DNA of 39,028 nucleotides, taken from assembly GCA_903930455.1 (NCBI GenBank), contig CAIYYT010000083.1, positions 1 through 39,028 on the forward strand. The letters are read 5' to 3'. This document shows positions 3,563-35,514 of the stretch, in pieces (position 1 is the first letter of the stretch; each line of letters opens with the position of its first letter). Source of the DNA: an uncultured bacterium. Lineage in GTDB: Bacteria; Zixibacteria; MSB-5A5; CAIYYT01. The notes under the pieces are model-generated. The model ran no database searches. It was not told where the DNA came from and saw only the letters and a program-made list of their open reading frames with translations. The position numbers and the translations under genes are program-made.

Positions 3563-6500
3563 CTATTTGATCTTGCTGGTGAGGTACTTGACCGCTTCTT
3601 CAAGCTGATTGTCTTCACCACGCTCGAGGCGGCTCAGATCGCGGGTAACGACAATGTCGGGTGCAACGCCATTGTTCTCCAACGCTTCCCCTTTGAGACT
3701 GTACCACCCCACCGTCGGGACTCCCAGTCTCCAACCATTGACAAGCAAATAGTACTTGGCGCCGACCACCGCACCGTAAGTTGTCGTGCCCATGATCGTG
3801 CCCAGCCCGAGTTCGCGAAATCCCAGCGCGAAAATCTCGGCATCAGATGTCGTGTTCTCGTCAGTCAGCAGCACGATCGGCATCGTTATTGCGCCACGCG
3901 CATCCTGTCCAATATCGCCATCGCGGGTTTTGTGCGTGACATAGGGTTTGCGGGAAAGACACTCCAGCAGTTTCTCGTGATTGTTGCCGCCGACATTGCC
4001 GCGAATGTCAAGAATCAGCCCTTGTTTCCCATCGAGTTGCTGCGCGAGTTCATTTTCGAAGCCGTTCATGCCATCATTGTCCATCTGTTTCAGATGAATG
4101 TAGGCGAGCTTCTTGCCCGAGAGGTTGTCCACAAAACTACGCGTCCTGGTGAGGTTGTCGCGATATTCGAAATCGTAGCAATCCTCCGCGCTCACCGGCG
4201 TGATCAATACGCTGCGTGAGATGCCATCGCGGCTGAAGATATCGAGTTTGATTTCCGTGCCGACCGTATTTTCAAAAGCTTCGTAATAGTCGACATTCGC
4301 ATTCAGCTTTTTGCCTTCGACGGCCGTAATCTTATCTTCCAGTCGCAATTCGGAACTCAATCGGGTGGCAGGCGAGCCGGAAAGGATGTATTTCACTTTT
4401 AGGCCAGCCGAGTTGTCATCATAGTCGGGTAAGATTCCCAGCACTCCGGTCTCACCAACTTGTGGCTTGTCCCTCCAGATCATGATGTGCGAGCAATCGA
4501 GTTCTCCGATCATTTCCGAGATGATGTCATAGAGATCGTTCGGTTCGGTGGCCGCTTGCACGCGAAGGAGGTAGGTCTCGCGAATGCCGTTCCAGTCAAC
4601 ACCGTGCATCGTCGGATCGTAGAAATGCACTTTCAATGTCGCCCAAACCTGATCAAAAACATGTGTCATTTCCTGTTTGCGGTCGATATCCATCTCACCA
4701 CTGATGAGTAGCGGCGTGGCTGTGCCGTCTTGAAGGTTGACACTCTGTATCCTCCCCTTACCGTCCTGCACATACGCGATTTCGCCGCGCGGTGAAAATT
4801 GCAGACCTGAAGGTGAGGGCAAGGTGCTGGTGACCACCCTTTGGTCGCTGCCGTCGAGATTCACCCTCTCAATTTGCCCGGCAGAGGTGATATACAACAG
4901 CGTCGAGGAATTCGGCGACATGACAGTCGATTCGATATTGCCCTGATGAGTCAGTTGTACATCACGATCGGCGATTCCGTCGAAATCAATCATTACCATA
5001 GGCAGTCCGAGCGCATTCTTGGTCGCGTTCTTCTCGGCGTACTCCTGCCGCTCGAAGAAAGCCATTTCCGCCAAGCGTCGCTCCAAGTAGAGATAATGGA
5101 GATCGTTATCATTGACGTAATAGACCAGTCTGCCATCGGCGGAAAAGCGTGGGTCATTGTAGCTGCCAGCCTCGTCACTGATCTTGTAGATGGCACCGCT
5201 TTCACTGTCGCCGATGTATACCTGACTGTGCCAGTCGGCATCGATCCGAGTGAACACGATGTAACGCCCGTCGGGAGACCAATCGAGCGAAGTGATGGCG
5301 CCTTTCTCGGTCAGTACGCGTTCGGTCAGCTTCTTGATGTCCTTGATGACCAACTCTGTTTCACCGCGGATAAAGGCAAGTTTGCTTTGATCGGGAGAGA
5401 TCAGCGGCACTCGCTTGGTAAGATCCGACTTGACGAAGGGTGCAATCTCGCAATCATGCGATCGAGCCAGCGAACTCTGACTAAGATCAGTCGAGCGGGC
5501 AAGATAGATGTCACAGACAAGATCGCGATCGGAGACAAAAGCCAGTTGTTTGGAGTCGGGAGACCATATGAGATCGCGTTCGTTAGCGGCATCCGATGTG
5601 AGTTGTTGCTGATAATTTCCCGACAGGTCACGACAAAAGATGTCACCGTGAACGACATAGGCAAGCAGTTTGCCGTCCGGTGAAATCGTAAAATTGCTGA
5701 CACCCGAATCGAATGTGACATGTTCAACCGCATTGGTCTTGGCTGCAGCCGACGCCTCCAGTTCCAGCTTACGTCCCTGCCCGGTTTTGAAATCATAGAG
5801 GAAGATTTCGCCGCCAAGTTCGTAGGCGGCCAACGAAGCGTCCTGAGCCACCGACAGATGCGAAATGCTGAGCCGATGATTTGTCAACTGCGTGACCTGA
5901 CCGCTGACCAGATTCTTTTTGAAAAGACTGTATACTCCGGTCGAGTCGGAAAGAAACAGGACTTCGCTGCCGCTGGGGGACCAGAATCCGTCTCGCTCGT
6001 TGCTGGGCGCTTGAGTGACACTCACGATTGTGCCTGAGGTTAGATCTTTCAGAAACAAATCGCATGCCGCGGTGCCACGATAGCCCTTGCGCCAGTACGG
6101 CACCGCACCGCGTGTAAACAACAGCCGGGTGCCGTCGGGTGATTTGCGACCATCAAACGATTCAATGGTTGTTAGGGGTTTAGCGCGTCCGCCGATGGCG
6201 GAGACTTCCCACACTTGCTGATAAGGATGATCTCGCTGTGAAGTGAAGAGGATTCGTCGACTGTCAGCGCTCCAGCCGGAGACCAGATCATCCGCCGAAT
6301 GGTAGGTGACGCGCGTTTCGATACCACCAGTGGCGGGAATTACGAAGACATCATAGTTGCCGTAACGTTGGGACGAAAAGGCGATGAAATTGCCGTCCGG
6401 AGACCATTTCGGGTAAGCGTCGTAGCCGACATGCACTGTCATCCGTTGGGCTTTGCCACCCTGCGCGGAGACGATCCAAAGATCGCCTTGATAAGAGAAA

Positions 6501-6634
6501 CAGACTTTCGACCCATCAGGCGAAGGCGCTGGATGATGTAGATTTAGCGGCCCTGACAGCACCGTGCTAGATGCTGTCAGAAGCGTTAAGATCAGAAACA
6601 CTTTTGCGTTCAATAGCTTACCGATCAAGGACAT
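3563..6634 (-). CDS. Tricorn protease-like S41 peptidase (WD40/TolB-like beta-propeller, PDZ, S41 domain), exported
   Basis: 1044 aa ORF (3563..6697); better start MSLIGKLLNAKVFLILTLLTASS at 6634 with GGAG just upstream. Repeated SPDGKxxxF propeller motifs, VLGILPDYDDN..., LILDIRGNVGGN, TSDAEIFALGFRELGLGTIMGTTTYGAVVG typical of tricorn/S41. Confidence 0.9.
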   Translation of the reverse strand: MSLIGKLLNAKVFLILTLLTASSTVLSGPLNLHHPAPSPDGSKVCFSYQGDLWIVSAQGGKAQRMTVHVGYDAYPKWSPDGNFIAFSSQRYGNYDVFVIPATGGIETRVTYHSADDLVSGWSADSRRILFTSQRDHPYQQVWEVSAIGGRAKPLTTIESFDGRKSPDGTRLLFTRGAVPYWRKGYRGTAACDLFLKDLTSGTIVSVTQAPSNERDGFWSPSGSEVLFLSDSTGVYSLFKKNLVSGQVTQLTNHRLSISHLSVAQDASLAAYELGGEIFLYDFKTGQGRKLELEASAAAKTNAVEHVTFDSGVSNFTISPDGKLLAYVVHGDIFCRDLSGNYQQQLTSDAANERDLIWSPDSKQLAFVSDRDLVCDIYLARSTDLSQSSLARSHDCEIAPFVKSDLTKRVPLISPDQSKLAFIRGETELVIKDIKKLTERVLTEKGAITSLDWSPDGRYIVFTRIDADWHSQVYIGDSESGAIYKISDEAGSYNDPRFSADGRLVYYVNDNDLHYLYLERRLAEMAFFERQEYAEKNATKNALGLPMVMIDFDGIADRDVQLTHQGNIESTVMSPNSSTLLYITSAGQIERVNLDGSDQRVVTSTLPSPSGLQFSPRGEIAYVQDGKGRIQSVNLQDGTATPLLISGEMDIDRKQEMTHVFDQVWATLKVHFYDPTMHGVDWNGIRETYLLRVQAATEPNDLYDIISEMIGELDCSHIMIWRDKPQVGETGVLGILPDYDDNSAGLKVKYILSGSPATRLSSELRLEDKITAVEGKKLNANVDYYEAFENTVGTEIKLDIFSRDGISRSVLITPVSAEDCYDFEYRDNLTRTRSFVDNLSGKKLAYIHLKQMDNDGMNGFENELAQQLDGKQGLILDIRGNVGGNNHEKLLECLSRKPYVTHKTRDGDIGQDARGAITMPIVLLTDENTTSDAEIFALGFRELGLGTIMGTTTYGAVVGAKYYLLVNGWRLGVPTVGWYSLKGEALENNGVAPDIVVTRDLSRLERGEDNQLEEAVKYLTSKIK

Positions 6635-6830
6635 ACTCCAACCGTAACCAAGCATTTGCAAACCTACTAATCTGACGCGCCAGCCGCCAAAACGCAAAAT
6701 CTTTTTTTGTGTAGTTCAGTAACGTTTCCTATCGTGGGCGACCCGAACCACCCTGATGCCCTTGACAAAGCCTTCGACCAGACTGCTCTTTTAGGTTGAC
6801 AATAGCTCCGAGTCCGACTAACTAAGTGCC

Positions 6831-24213: not shown

Positions 24214-24246
24214 AAACAAAAACCTCCGGGTCAGGCGACCCGGAGG
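24214..24246 (-). terminator. Rho-independent terminator for the cytochrome/porin operon
   Basis: Perfect 10-bp stem CCTCCGGGTC-GCCT-GACCCGGAGG followed on the minus strand by TTTTTGTTT. Confidence 0.85.
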
Positions 24247-24301
24247 CTGTGTGTGATTCCGGCCAGTAGTGTCGATAAGGCAGAACCACAGTTGCAGGTT
24301 G

Positions 24302-25399
24302 TTAGTCTTGTCGACCGGCAACAAGAGCGCTCGATCCCTCAGGATGAGCTCTGAGATACGCAATCGAGTTCTTGATTAGCGCAACCTCATACTTGAAATT
24401 GTGCACTCCCTCAGAACGATCATCCTCAAGCATTAGGAAGTTATAGACCGCTCCGGCTGCACCAGTGGCGACTCTCTTATTGGTAGGCAGGGATGACGCC
24501 GAGTCCAGATATCCATCTGCAATGAGAAGAGTCTTCAACGTGTCAAGGAGTCCAAGAAATTCGGTCTGTACTCCACTAATGGTGCCATCGCCGTCATAAT
24601 CGGCCTTCGCCTTGAAGTTATATGATTTGGCGGATGGATGGCAGTCACTTGCCCTGGCGCACCCTGCGGAAAGATCGCTCCCGGTCGCCTCATCGACCAT
24701 GTTGAAGCTGTGACCGCCGATCTTGTAGCCGTCATGAGTAAGAGGGTTGCCCTTGTGGCAATCGATACAGCCGTCGGTAAACAGGGTACGATGCGGCGAA
24801 CTCTCATAAGCGACGGTCGGGTTTGAATACTGATAGCCATTCGCGCCCTCGAACAGATCGCCTTGAGGACCGTGGTGCGGCCCCCAGCGAGAGGATATGC
24901 TATCCGTTGGCGTGGCAATACTCGCCGCTGACATTCTGGAGTGATGACAATTGGCGCAAAGGTTGCCTGCGCCGTGGTCAAACACGCTTCCATTTAGCAG
25001 AGCAAAGGGCGCTTCCGTGCGCAATTTCAAAGTCCCGGTTTCGTGCGGCGCATGACAAGTGAAGCAATGAATTGCACTGACTGTCGAGTAGGGAGCGCTC
25101 ACTGCGCCGGTGTTCAAGAATTCGATAAATCCTTGCTGACTGTGGCAGCGAGTGCAATCATTGCCGCCGCCACGATTGGTGTAGTCAATGTTGGTGCCTG
25201 AAGCGTGTACCGAATTCTGCCATTCGCCCTGCGCTTCAAGAATTGCACCTCCGAAGCTTTCTTCGCCGTGGCATGCAAAGCAACCTGTCAGTTGCTGGTT
25301 ATCATTGCTGACCTGATTGACGACCTTTCGTTCGCATCCGGCAACGATCGCGAGGACTGCGATCAGTGCGACGATGCTCAGGATACGTAGGACCCTCAT
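24302..25399 (-). CDS. Multiheme c-type cytochrome lipoprotein
   Basis: 365 aa; lipobox IVALIAVLAIVAGC; CXXCH at CFACH, CTRCH, CFTCH, CANCH, CIDCH, plus a non-canonical CARASDCH. Confidence 0.85.
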   Translation of the reverse strand: MRVLRILSIVALIAVLAIVAGCERKVVNQVSNDNQQLTGCFACHGEESFGGAILEAQGEWQNSVHASGTNIDYTNRGGGNDCTRCHSQQGFIEFLNTGAVSAPYSTVSAIHCFTCHAPHETGTLKLRTEAPFALLNGSVFDHGAGNLCANCHHSRMSAASIATPTDSISSRWGPHHGPQGDLFEGANGYQYSNPTVAYESSPHRTLFTDGCIDCHKGNPLTHDGYKIGGHSFNMVDEATGSDLSAGCARASDCHPSAKSYNFKAKADYDGDGTISGVQTEFLGLLDTLKTLLIADGYLDSASSLPTNKRVATGAAGAVYNFLMLEDDRSEGVHNFKYEVALIKNSIAYLRAHPEGSSALVAGRQD

Positions 25400-25408
25400 A
25401 AAACCTCC

Positions 25409-27004
25409 TTAAAAAGACAGACCTTTAATCAAATTGATTTCCACGATATTGGCGGTGTAGTACTCATCCCGCACCAAGAAGTCGTCAAAGTTGTGCACGT
25501 TGTAGATTGCTTCCAGCCGCATGTCGTCGTAGAATCGAAACGCTGCGGAGCACCTGATATTGAAGCTTTCAACATTCAGATCGCGCTTGCTGCGGTAGTA
25601 AGTCGCGCCTGCGCCCGCCGTCAGGCGGTAGTATTCCTGCGAAATGATGTCACCGTAGAGCAAATGATCAGTGAACTTGAAATTGCTCGCACTATTCTCA
25701 TAGTCGCCTTTGCCATAGGAATAGCCGGCTGTGACGGTCGCGTATTTTTTGAGCGTGACGCCACAGTCAATCGTAGCGCGATTCAGTGTGATCTTGCTGC
25801 CGATGTCGTCGTTCTTACGTACCTTGCTCTCATACTTGACCGCGATGTTGCCGATGTCGGTATAGCGATATTTGCCTGAGACGCGGAAGCGATTGAGATC
25901 TTCGTTGCCGACCAACCGGACGCCTTCCTTGACATCCTCAGCGCGGTTACCATACTCAGCGCGCAGTTCGGCCCGGGGCACGGGTCTGAACCAGCCGGAA
26001 CCATAAAACGAGTTTGCCTTTGTCTGTTCCAGGTACTGGTCGTTGATATCATGCTGATAGCCAATAGTCATGCCCCCATATCGCAGATTGGTGAAACCAG
26101 CATAGAGCGCGTGTACGAGGTTATCGGTTGCCGTATAGTCGCTATCTGACGACGTGCGGTCGAGCATAACATAGTACTTGAGTGAAAAGTTCTTAGGTAA
26201 GGCAAACGCCGCGGCGCCCCAGCCACGATTGGAGCTGATAGTGAAGTCTGATGCTCTGTATATCCTATCTTGGGTGTGAAATCCTTCCACTTTCTTGTAC
26301 TTTGTCTCGAAGTTGCGGAAGCCACCCTGCAGGATAATCCATTCGTAACGCGGAATCGGTATAGAGGCGGAGACTCGGCCTTCCCTGCGATTCTGATTGC
26401 GATTCACATCCAGGTTGTCGCGGAACTGGTTAGCCCGAAATTCGCCCGCGACCATCATGCCGCGATAAGTGACTCGAGCGCCACCGTTGTAGAAATACTG
26501 TTTGTAGTCGACATCGACTTTATCGCCAATCGGACTGGGACTGAACAAATCGGTTGTCGAGCCGGTGCGTCCCATGTTGGCGCCGCCGCCGAAGAGTTCA
26601 ATATATCCAACCGGATGAAACGACAATGAAGCGCCTTCATTGTGACGACGCGTAGTGCTGCCGCCGTGGAAGTCATAAATGCGACGGAATTGATTATGCG
26701 ACAACTTCAGGGAAAACAGCCCCGCTTTGCCAATGTCCGCGGTCAGGTTGCGGTTGTTCATAGTCATATTCCGCAGGTTAGCGCGGAGTAGCATGCCATT
26801 TTTGAAGTCGTAACGGAAATTTTCCAGCGAGAGCGAAGCACCCTCATAATCGTTGAAGGTGGTGCGGTTTCCCGACAAGTTACCGGTCTCATCCAAAACG
26901 ATGTAGCCGAGTTTGATATCGCCGTTGCCGGCAGCCATTGCCACGGTCATCATCGGCATCAAGATTATTGCGCCAATCAGTAGTGCTTTAGCGAACCTCA
27001 TCAT
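25409..27004 (-). CDS. MtrB/PioB-like outer-membrane beta-barrel (decaheme-associated porin family)
   Basis: ORF 25409..27049; likely start MMRFAKALLIGAIILMPMMTVAMAAGNGDIKLGYIVLDE at 27004; strand-rich repeats ending in an aromatic residue (INLIKGLSF); directly follows a MtrA/DmsE-like cytochrome. Confidence 0.75.
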   Translation of the reverse strand: MMRFAKALLIGAIILMPMMTVAMAAGNGDIKLGYIVLDETGNLSGNRTTFNDYEGASLSLENFRYDFKNGMLLRANLRNMTMNNRNLTADIGKAGLFSLKLSHNQFRRIYDFHGGSTTRRHNEGASLSFHPVGYIELFGGGANMGRTGSTTDLFSPSPIGDKVDVDYKQYFYNGGARVTYRGMMVAGEFRANQFRDNLDVNRNQNRREGRVSASIPIPRYEWIILQGGFRNFETKYKKVEGFHTQDRIYRASDFTISSNRGWGAAAFALPKNFSLKYYVMLDRTSSDSDYTATDNLVHALYAGFTNLRYGGMTIGYQHDINDQYLEQTKANSFYGSGWFRPVPRAELRAEYGNRAEDVKEGVRLVGNEDLNRFRVSGKYRYTDIGNIAVKYESKVRKNDDIGSKITLNRATIDCGVTLKKYATVTAGYSYGKGDYENSASNFKFTDHLLYGDIISQEYYRLTAGAGATYYRSKRDLNVESFNIRCSAAFRFYDDMRLEAIYNVHNFDDFLVRDEYYTANIVEINLIKGLSF

Positions 27005-27012
27005 GATCCTCC

Positions 27013-27972
27013 TCACCGTACCTTGTCGTGGCAGCCCGACTGATAGCAATCGGCAAAGAACTTGGTGTTCAACTGCGGGTCCAGAAACTTGCGGTTGTCA
27101 TCCGAGCCATGAATATCGCTGTGGCAATTGACACAAGCGACTTTGGCGCCCAGGCCGGAATGTGCCGTACGATGTGCGGGGGGAATACCATGGCATTGAA
27201 GACAGACGCCATTACCCGGTTGTGCCAGCAGACGATCGTTTGGGGAGCCGTGTGGGTTGTGGCATTCGGTACAACCACCGCCGTTGAACGAATAGGTCTC
27301 GGTCACCGGATGCTCAAACGCATGCGGGCCGGAATATTCGCTGTGGCAATTCTGACAGGTCCAGTCGATGCCGCGCGCCAGCATGGGGTCTTTGCGGTCG
27401 TCCGGAAAGTGACAACTGGAACAGCGAATGTTGTTGGTCACCAGCGGATGCGCCGACCTACTCTTGAATTGCACGACGACATCGGTGTGACAGGTGCCAC
27501 AAAAATCATCCTTGTCGTCTTTGACCAGCGATCTGGCTTTGTTGCCGTGCACTGTGTGACATGAAGTGCAGGCAAGCTGCGCGCGACCATGCGGGTCGGT
27601 GGTGAGCATCGTTGCTTGATGGTCATTCATGTGGCAGCCGCTGCAGATTTGAGCCTGTTTGGCAAGAGTAAGATTAGCGGGAACGACGATGTTGTCCTTG
27701 GTAGGATCCTCCAGATGCTTCTCCCAGCCCGGATGACAGGCAACGCAACCAACGATCACTTTCGCCATCTTGTCGTCGAGCATCGTTAGTTGGTGTGTTG
27801 ATCCTTTGAGATTATCTGCCGCCTCCGGATGACACTCCAGACACGCCGCTGACCGCGATATCAAGGAGTCTCGCGAGAGTGGGGGCGAAGCTGCCACCAA
27901 AGGGACAACCGCAAACAGGAGAAAAAAGAGCAACAGAGTCCTGGAGACTTGTGCACTTCCTTGTTTACTCAT
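27013..27972 (-). CDS. MtrA/DmsE-family multiheme c-type cytochrome
   Basis: 319 aa; 10 CXXCH motifs (CLECH, CVACH, CSGCH, CTSCH, CGTCH, CSSCH, CQNCH, CTECH, CLQCH, CVNCH) and one CX4CH (CYQSGCH); N-terminal signal peptide. Confidence 0.9.
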   Translation of the reverse strand: MSKQGSAQVSRTLLLFFLLFAVVPLVAASPPLSRDSLISRSAACLECHPEAADNLKGSTHQLTMLDDKMAKVIVGCVACHPGWEKHLEDPTKDNIVVPANLTLAKQAQICSGCHMNDHQATMLTTDPHGRAQLACTSCHTVHGNKARSLVKDDKDDFCGTCHTDVVVQFKSRSAHPLVTNNIRCSSCHFPDDRKDPMLARGIDWTCQNCHSEYSGPHAFEHPVTETYSFNGGGCTECHNPHGSPNDRLLAQPGNGVCLQCHGIPPAHRTAHSGLGAKVACVNCHSDIHGSDDNRKFLDPQLNTKFFADCYQSGCHDKVR

Positions 27973-33420: not shown

Positions 33421-34122
33421 ATGAACGGTGATGCGTATGAACATGCCCTGAAGCTATTGCGTTTGGCACTGGGCGACTCTCAAGCTTTGTTTCGTGAAGG
33501 ACAATGGGAAGCGATCTTCCAACTGGTTTATCGCAAGTCTCGACTGCTGGTGGTGGAGCGCACCGGCTGGGGGAAAAGCATCGTCTATTTTCTGGCAACG
33601 CGTTTGTTGCGGGACGATGGCAGTGGCGCCACGATACTCGTCTCTCCTCTGTTAGCGCTAATGCGTAACCAGATTCTGGCGGCGGAACGGATGGGTCTGC
33701 GAGCCGCTACAATCAATTCGAGCAATGTTGACGAATGGGGTCAAGTGCAGCAGGAACTGGCTGCCGGCAGAATTGATATCCTGCTGGTCTCCCCGGAGCG
33801 CCTTGCCAATGACAGCTTTTGCATACGGGTGCTGGCGCCACTGGCAAGCAAGGCGGGTCTTTTTGTTGTCGACGAGGCGCATTGTATATCGGATTGGGGG
33901 CATGACTTTCGACCCGATTATCGACGGATTCAGCAAGTGCTAAAAGCTATGCCGCTGAGTATTCCGATTTTGGCAACAACGGCAACGGCCAACAACCGGG
34001 TGGTAGAGGACATAATCACTCAGTTGGCATCCGGTCTGGTGATCCAACGCGGGCCCCTGGAACGTGAAAGCCTTCGTCTGCAAAACATTGTTCTTCCCAG
34101 TCAGGCGATGCGTTTGGCATAG
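33421..34122 (+). CDS. RecQ-family helicase, N-terminal helicase domain (ORF ended by an in-frame TAG)
   Basis: Walker A ERTGWGKSIVYFLATRLL; VVDEAHCISDWGHDFRPDYRRI; ILATTATANNRVVEDI; RBS GGGGAGG. The same frame continues past TAG as LAEHLPPLPGSGIIYTLTIEDARRVAKWLQ. Confidence 0.9.
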   Translation: MNGDAYEHALKLLRLALGDSQALFREGQWEAIFQLVYRKSRLLVVERTGWGKSIVYFLATRLLRDDGSGATILVSPLLALMRNQILAAERMGLRAATINSSNVDEWGQVQQELAAGRIDILLVSPERLANDSFCIRVLAPLASKAGLFVVDEAHCISDWGHDFRPDYRRIQQVLKAMPLSIPILATTATANNRVVEDIITQLASGLVIQRGPLERESLRLQNIVLPSQAMRLA

Positions 34123-34194: not shown

Positions 34195-35514
34195 GTGGCA
34201 AAATGGCTGCAAATGCGGCACATCAACGCTCATGCTTACTGGAGCGCGCTGGAGACCGAACAGCGGAAGGAGTTGGAACAACAGTTGCTGGATAACGAAA
34301 TCAAAGCGCTGGTAGCGACATCGGCTTTGGGAATGGGTTTTGACAAGCCGGATATTGGTTTTGTAATTCACTTTCAACGTCCCGGCTCGGCCATACACTA
34401 CTACCAGCAAGTGGGACGCGCCGGGCGGGCCGTGCAATTGGCGTTTGGAATCTTGCTTTGTGGCGCCGAGGATGACGAGATCACCGACTACTTTATCCGC
34501 TCGGCGATGCCCTCCGTCGAGCATGTAGGACAGGTGCTGGACGCTCTAAAACGTGCTTCACTCGGACTGAACATTTCCGAAATTGAGACTCAGGTCAATA
34601 TCCGTCGCAGCGAAATTGATAAAGTCCTATCACTATTGGCGGTGGAGTCGCCGGCACCGATCGTGAAGATCGATACCCGTTGGCACCTTCAAGAAGTGAA
34701 GTACTGTTACGATACTTTGCGTGCGGCGCAACTGCTGCAGACTAAGCGAGCCGAACAGACACGGATGCGCGAGTATATGCATACACAAGAGTGCTTGATG
34801 GCGTTTCTGAAACGGGAACTGGACGATCCCGACACGCGTCCCTGCGGGCGGTGCGCAAACTGCATTGGGCAACCGCTCCTGTCCGAGAGTTGCTCTGAAA
34901 CACTCGTGACTGAGGCACTGCGATTTCTGCAACACTGCCATCGGCGGATCGAACCTCGCAAACGCTGGCCGATCGGCGCCTTCGTTGAACACGATTTCAG
35001 AGGTTCCATCTCCGCCACACTGAACATGGAAGAAGGACGGGCCCTGTGCCGCTGGGGAGATGCCGGTTGGGGTGAGAAAGTGCGGCGTGGCAAACAACAG
35101 GACTGTCACTTTGATGACGAATTGGTAAACGCCTCTTTTGACCTGATCCGCATAAGCTGGCAACCGAGGCCGTTTCCCAAATGGGTCACGTGCGTTCCGT
35201 CGCTTAACAACCGTACGTTGGTACCGGATTTCGCACAACGGTTAGCGCGCGAATTGCGGTTGCCATTTGTTCCATGTATTGTTAAGGCACATCCGACGGA
35301 AGCGCAGAAGATTCGCAGCAACAGCTTTCAGCAGGCTCGCAATCTTGACGGCGCTTTCGCAATCGATGACACACTTGTAAAACACGAACCCGTATTGTTA
35401 GTTGATGACATGGTTGACTCCCGCTGGACGATGACGGTGGTGGCGGCGCTTCTGCGACAAGCAGGCAGCGGTCCGGTCTTCCCGTTTGCGTTAGCGGTTA
35501 CCACGTCGGAGTAA
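34195..35514 (+). CDS. RecQ-family helicase C-terminal lobe, Zn-binding region and phosphoribosyltransferase-like C-terminal domain
   Basis: LVATSALGMGFDKPDIGFVIHFQRPGSAIHYYQQVGRAGR; PCGRCANC; C-terminal PRPP-loop-like VLLVDDMVDSRWTMTVVAALLRQAG. Same frame as 33421..34122. Confidence 0.88.
   Translation: MAKWLQMRHINAHAYWSALETEQRKELEQQLLDNEIKALVATSALGMGFDKPDIGFVIHFQRPGSAIHYYQQVGRAGRAVQLAFGILLCGAEDDEITDYFIRSAMPSVEHVGQVLDALKRASLGLNISEIETQVNIRRSEIDKVLSLLAVESPAPIVKIDTRWHLQEVKYCYDTLRAAQLLQTKRAEQTRMREYMHTQECLMAFLKRELDDPDTRPCGRCANCIGQPLLSESCSETLVTEALRFLQHCHRRIEPRKRWPIGAFVEHDFRGSISATLNMEEGRALCRWGDAGWGEKVRRGKQQDCHFDDELVNASFDLIRISWQPRPFPKWVTCVPSLNNRTLVPDFAQRLARELRLPFVPCIVKAHPTEAQKIRSNSFQQARNLDGAFAIDDTLVKHEPVLLVDDMVDSRWTMTVVAALLRQAGSGPVFPFALAVTTSE

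Follow-up and report, generated by a model that had tools for sequence, protein, structure and literature searches.

The window, that is, the whole 39,028-nucleotide stretch of DNA that was analyzed, belongs to a 3.77-Mb, 266-contig assembly that we searched for family matches, and its close relatives are Candidatus Zixiibacteriota MAGs (in one of them, locus L025 is 92% identical in part of the cytochrome described below). The earlier note had reported three tightly packed minus-strand genes closed by a strong terminator, and we confirmed all three ORFs at the same positions as well as the hairpin. The genes encode a 319-aa periplasmic undecaheme cytochrome c of the MtrA/DmsE type (27013-27972, minus strand), a 531-aa outer-membrane beta-barrel predicted to have 26 strands and the MtrB fold (25409-27004, minus strand), and a 365-aa predicted hexaheme outer-membrane lipoprotein, a surface cytochrome of the OcwA/NrfA/Pcc type (24302-25399, minus strand). 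They are separated by 8 and 9 nt, and a GGAGG sequence precedes the second and third genes, the barrel starting at an ATG at 27004 or 27001. An intrinsic terminator (24221-24248, minus strand) with a 12-pair stem, a 4-nt loop, and a T-rich tail closes the cluster; terminator-like sites are no more numerous in the region than in shuffled sequences, and this hairpin is the longest and most GC-rich among them. The cluster, judged from its sequence, is not due to chance: about 30 loci of related genomes have kept the gene order and the heme motifs.

We then analyzed the sequence of the cytochrome, which had been described as an 11-heme MtrA/DmsE-like protein. It begins with a hydrophobic signal-type stretch without a lipobox and contains 10 CXXCH motifs and a terminal CX4CH motif (CYQSGCH, residues 309 to 315, 27028-27048, minus strand) located in a C-terminal extension. 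The HMM check proposed in the earlier note matched the DmsE profile TIGR03508 with an E value of 4.7e-48 and 163.9 bits, below the curated cutoff of 192.2, and the protein also matched MtrA of PDB entry 6R2Q (6r2q_A, E value of 3.2e-30), both of which agree with membership in the MtrA/DmsE family. The PDB file labels 6r2q_A as a cystathionine beta-synthase, yet the entry 6R2Q is the Mtr complex (PMC12203936).

In a phylogenetic tree, the 25 conduit cytochromes formed one clade (support, 100/99), separate from both the MtrA-type proteins of other bacteria and two paralogs from Zixibacteria. All 25 have the C-terminal extension with an invariant final C-H, the first Cys of this last motif being variably spaced (CX4CH, CXXCH, or CXCH), and the alignment revealed no such heme extension in four nonconduit MtrA-type relatives. 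Ten His residues outside the motifs are kept in at least 90% of the conduit cytochromes, which leaves one of the eleven hemes without a conserved distal His. At the motifs other than CXXCH, heme attachment is presumed. The last motif reads CXCH (CYCH, CFCH, or CWCH) in loci L108, L115, L117, L119, and L121, a spacing that, to our knowledge, is not an established heme c motif. Two Zixibacteria genomes also contain a second MtrA-type cytochrome with 10 hemes (L116:1955-2902, plus strand, and L123:7668-8798, minus strand), which clusters with a Calditrichota protein outside the conduit clade.

The barrel had been called MtrB/PioB-like, a claim that stood by structure but not by profile. The proposed search with the MtrB_PioB profile (PF11854, 23-bit cutoff) did not match the barrel, nor did any other Pfam or NCBIfam family, and no PF11854 match was found anywhere in the protein or the genome, so that "PioB-like" found no support by profile; control MtrBs in loci L028, L029, and L090 matched PF11854 with E values of 1e-115 to 1e-194. 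A sequence search of the PDB with the barrel was likewise without a match. The AlphaFold2 model, built from an alignment of only seven sequences (pLDDT, 79; pTM, 0.64), has 26 strands, which is the number found in MtrB (PMC7198977). When this model was compared to the PDB with Foldseek, the top hit was MtrB of the solved MtrCAB complex (6r2q_B, E value of 6.6e-17, TMq of 0.79), the second-best hit had an E value of 1.7e-8, and every other hit had a TMq of about 0.5 or less. The 26-strand MtrB fold is thus predicted for the barrel, within the limits of a seven-sequence alignment. An HMM of the barrel family matched only three of 1,564 ORFs from other loci, all three being bona fide Pfam MtrBs. 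The earlier note had named a barrel resembling MtrB/PioB neither by profile nor by structure, or one too small to enclose the cytochrome, as grounds for giving up its reading; the Foldseek match argues against the former and the 26 strands of the model against the latter.

The lipoprotein has the clear lipobox (VAG-C22) and the five CXXCH motifs noted previously, and we raise the total of its heme motifs to six. The protein is most likely a hexaheme cytochrome, because all 20 aligned relatives have the Cys and His residues of the additional motif, C247-X5-C253-H254, which takes the form CXXCH, CX4CH, or a longer one in them. These 20 relatives share C22, the six heme motifs, and invariant nonmotif His residues at positions 65, 119, 175, 203, 230, and 333. 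Profiles of the family match OcwA, OmhA, NrfA, and octaheme nitrite reductases, the best solved relatives being OcwA (6i5b, E value of 5e-14) and OmhA (6qvm, E value of 4e-13). The relation, seen with the family profile, covers the heme motifs and a C-terminal helix region with a conserved His-Asn; the window lipoprotein alone as the query gave no PDB match. The AlphaFold2 model of the lipoprotein (pLDDT, 41) was unusable and was left out of the fold search. As the earlier note had proposed, the lipoprotein is unlike decaheme MtrC: among the decaheme MtrC/OmcA families (TIGR03507, PF22111, and PF22112), TIGR03507 gave no match, PF22113 gave only a weak, subcutoff one, and the family profile did not match three true MtrCs. 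We therefore rejected a truncated MtrC, and by its sequence signature the lipoprotein is an OcwA/NrfA/Pcc-type hexaheme module.

The third position of the cluster is modular. Besides the window type (about 340 to 390 aa, 5 or 6 hemes), we found a 385-aa protein with 8 hemes (L026) and proteins of about 700 aa with 12 to 16 hemes, of which those in L027, L111, L118, L122, and L124 match the window lipoprotein. Some of these ∼700-aa Zixibacteria proteins consist of a c554-like half joined to an NrfA-like half, the same two halves as those of OcwA, which combines a c554-like tetraheme with an NrfA-like pentaheme (PMC6703420). In L143, the lipoprotein position is occupied by two genes, the first for 8 hemes and the second for 5, and in L119 and L126 the barrel is not directly followed by a lipoprotein gene. 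In Desulfuromonadia, the window-type profile also matched both lipoproteins and multiheme proteins of very large size. The module recurs within multiheme proteins of 900 to 1,300 aa of this class (L179:5924-8713, L178, L183, and L184), twice in tandem in L179.

We then surveyed genomes with a 28-sequence barrel profile (E value of ≤1e-3). Matches were found in 73 of the 133 genomes of the phylum, or 72/133 without a marginal one (7.7e-4), and the barrel is single copy except in one genome that has an additional fragment. Of the 47 genomes in the phylum to which an Eisenbacteria MAG belongs, 5 matched, with an identical gene order where it was visible, and the order cytochrome-barrel-lipoprotein is kept in nearly all loci across Zixibacteria and Eisenbacteria. 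The 244 Desulfuromonadia genomes yielded only three marginal matches (5e-5 to 1e-3). For other lineages we sampled only single genomes, so these counts do not imply a restriction to the two phyla.

The cluster shares with MtrCAB of Shewanella (6R2Q) an MtrA-type wire cytochrome, a 26-strand barrel, and a surface lipoprotein cytochrome, but its barrel is about 120 aa shorter and outside PF11854, its wire has 11 heme motifs instead of 10, its genes are in the order wire-barrel-tip, and its tip is not an MtrC. With the porin-cytochrome clusters of Geobacter and other Desulfuromonadia (OmbB-OmaB-OmcB and ExtABCD), it shares the surface lipoprotein module, the tip profile matching 500- to 660-aa proteins in Desulfuromonadia Pcc-like clusters (E values of 1e-27 to 4e-38). 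The Zixibacteria barrel profile does not match the barrels of those clusters (412 to 519 aa). In the Desulfuromonadia locus L180, the periplasmic partner is a 230-aa, 8-heme protein that is not MtrA type; the barrel, 8-heme cytochrome, and lipoprotein of L180 resemble duplicated OmbB-OmaB-OmcB units, a name given by arrangement and not by direct comparison. OcwA of Thermincola potens (6I5B) and OmhA of Carboxydothermus ferrireducens (6QVM) have in common with the lipoprotein an NrfA-type heme module with C-terminal helices, but they come from Gram-positive hosts, have no barrel, and carry nine and eleven hemes, whereas the window lipoprotein corresponds to the NrfA-like half only, plus one extra heme. 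DmsEF, PioAB, and MtoAB share the MtrAB-type core, have a decaheme cytochrome as the wire, and are not known to carry such a lipoprotein tip (see also PMC12203936). ExtC is another lipoprotein with 5 hemes (PMC6148476), which we liken to the window lipoprotein by description only.

Outside the window, the same genome encodes a 500-aa heptaheme NapC/NirT protein and a 651-aa fusion of 11 hemes with a cytochrome b561; it also encodes a 183-aa c554-like tetraheme cytochrome. By size, heme number, and family, the NapC/NirT protein appears to be ImcH-like, and we take this name and that of CbcL-like, for the b561 fusion, from the presumed Geobacter counterparts. Relatives of the NapC/NirT and b561 types adjoin the conduit in several related genomes. 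Near the ImcH-like gene of the same genome, we noticed by eye genes resembling those of a sulfhydrogenase-type NiFe hydrogenase (L146:1678-6287, minus strand).

We propose, with a probability of roughly 0.85, that the three genes encode an extracellular electron-transfer conduit in which an Mtr-type core and an OcwA/Pcc-type tip form one outer-membrane complex. The porin-cytochrome system for extracellular electron transfer put forward in the earlier note is thus still the best reading, supported by the MtrA-type cytochrome and the MtrB-fold barrel; we infer complex formation, the direction of flow, and the acceptor. Electrons would pass from menaquinol via the inner-membrane ImcH-like and CbcL-like cytochromes and the periplasmic c554-like tetraheme cytochrome to the conduit. 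There, the 26-strand barrel would act as an insulating sheath, with the undecaheme cytochrome threaded through it as a wire, and the hexaheme lipoprotein docked outside would deliver electrons to an extracellular acceptor (a mineral, humic substances, an electrode, or a soluble oxidant). By analogy with the orientation of MtrA, the eleventh heme at the C terminus of the cytochrome may lie at the outer mouth and bridge to the lipoprotein.

An unlikely alternative is that the conduit feeds an extracellular enzyme, as DmsEF feeds an extracellular dimethyl sulfoxide reductase, the lipoprotein itself being NrfA-like and reducing a small oxidant such as nitrite or hydroxylamine. Its C-terminal half aligns with NrfA (2j7a/2vr0, E value of 4e-8), PF02335 was found in 10 of 24 relatives, and OcwA has a slow nitrite and hydroxylamine reductase activity (PMC6703420). 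However, the CXXCK catalytic motif of NrfA is absent, the motif corresponding to NrfA heme 1 being CTRCH; the best-scoring solved relative, OcwA, acts as a general reductase at the surface; and surface lipoproteins of Desulfuromonadia Pcc-like clusters have the module as well. The family also has a near-invariant HH pair, H175/H176, close to the position of the HH pair above the open heme of OcwA, so that heme 2 may be five-coordinate; the two pairs are off by one in the alignment, and their pairing is our reading. We assigned the heme ligands of the lipoprotein by what we take to be the analogy with NrfA. Six bis-His hemes had been considered as an argument against enzyme activity, which we dropped in view of this HH pair.

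The same complex might instead run inward and, in the style of PioAB or MtoAB, accept electrons from Fe(II) or from a partner cell. This seems improbable to us, since outward flow is suggested both by the ImcH-like and CbcL-like quinol oxidases and by the solved relatives of the lipoprotein, which are terminal reductases; neither precludes reversal. Porin-cytochrome pairs operate in either direction (PMC12203936), and mtrAB together with the rTCA cycle in Zixibacteria MAGs has been interpreted as lithoautotrophy (PMC9769843). The idea that the barrel is an unrelated outer-membrane protein merely adjoining cytochrome genes agrees with the fruitless Pfam, NCBIfam, and PDB sequence searches, but we reject it as highly improbable, as the Foldseek E value of MtrB is eight orders of magnitude better than that of any other barrel and, wherever the locus extends far enough, an MtrA-type gene lies directly ahead of the barrel.

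Earlier papers report porin-cytochrome or mtrAB genes that automated searches detected in Zixibacteria (PMC7005843, PMC9769843, and PMC10809760). Neither this gene set nor its barrel or tip is described in the open-licence papers that we searched. The uncultured Zixibacteria are common in sediments, and calls of their metal-reducing potential have so far come from automated hits; the cluster provides a precise, single-copy, and testable gene set for this potential, the barrel of which a Pfam search overlooks, and indicates that outer-membrane wires and surface cytochromes from different families get combined. More speculatively, and less likely than not, the extracellular electron-transfer conduit may represent a phylum-wide class with an Mtr-type core and a tip of OcwA/NrfA lineage that would be both wire and enzyme, its second heme being five-coordinate under the His-His pair, while the wire would have gained at the outer mouth an eleventh heme whose Cys spacing varies (CX4CH to CXCH). 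If so, tips consisting of only the c554-like or only the NrfA-like half, of a fusion, or of two genes would show steps in the assembly of OcwA-type proteins in living lineages.

Elsewhere in the window, adjacent ORFs ahead of a DprA-like gene contain DEAD and Helicase_C domains (33421-34122 and 34195-35514, plus strand), possibly a single helicase split by a frameshift or an assembly error, and 3563-6697 (minus strand) encodes a Tricorn-like protease with an S41 domain.
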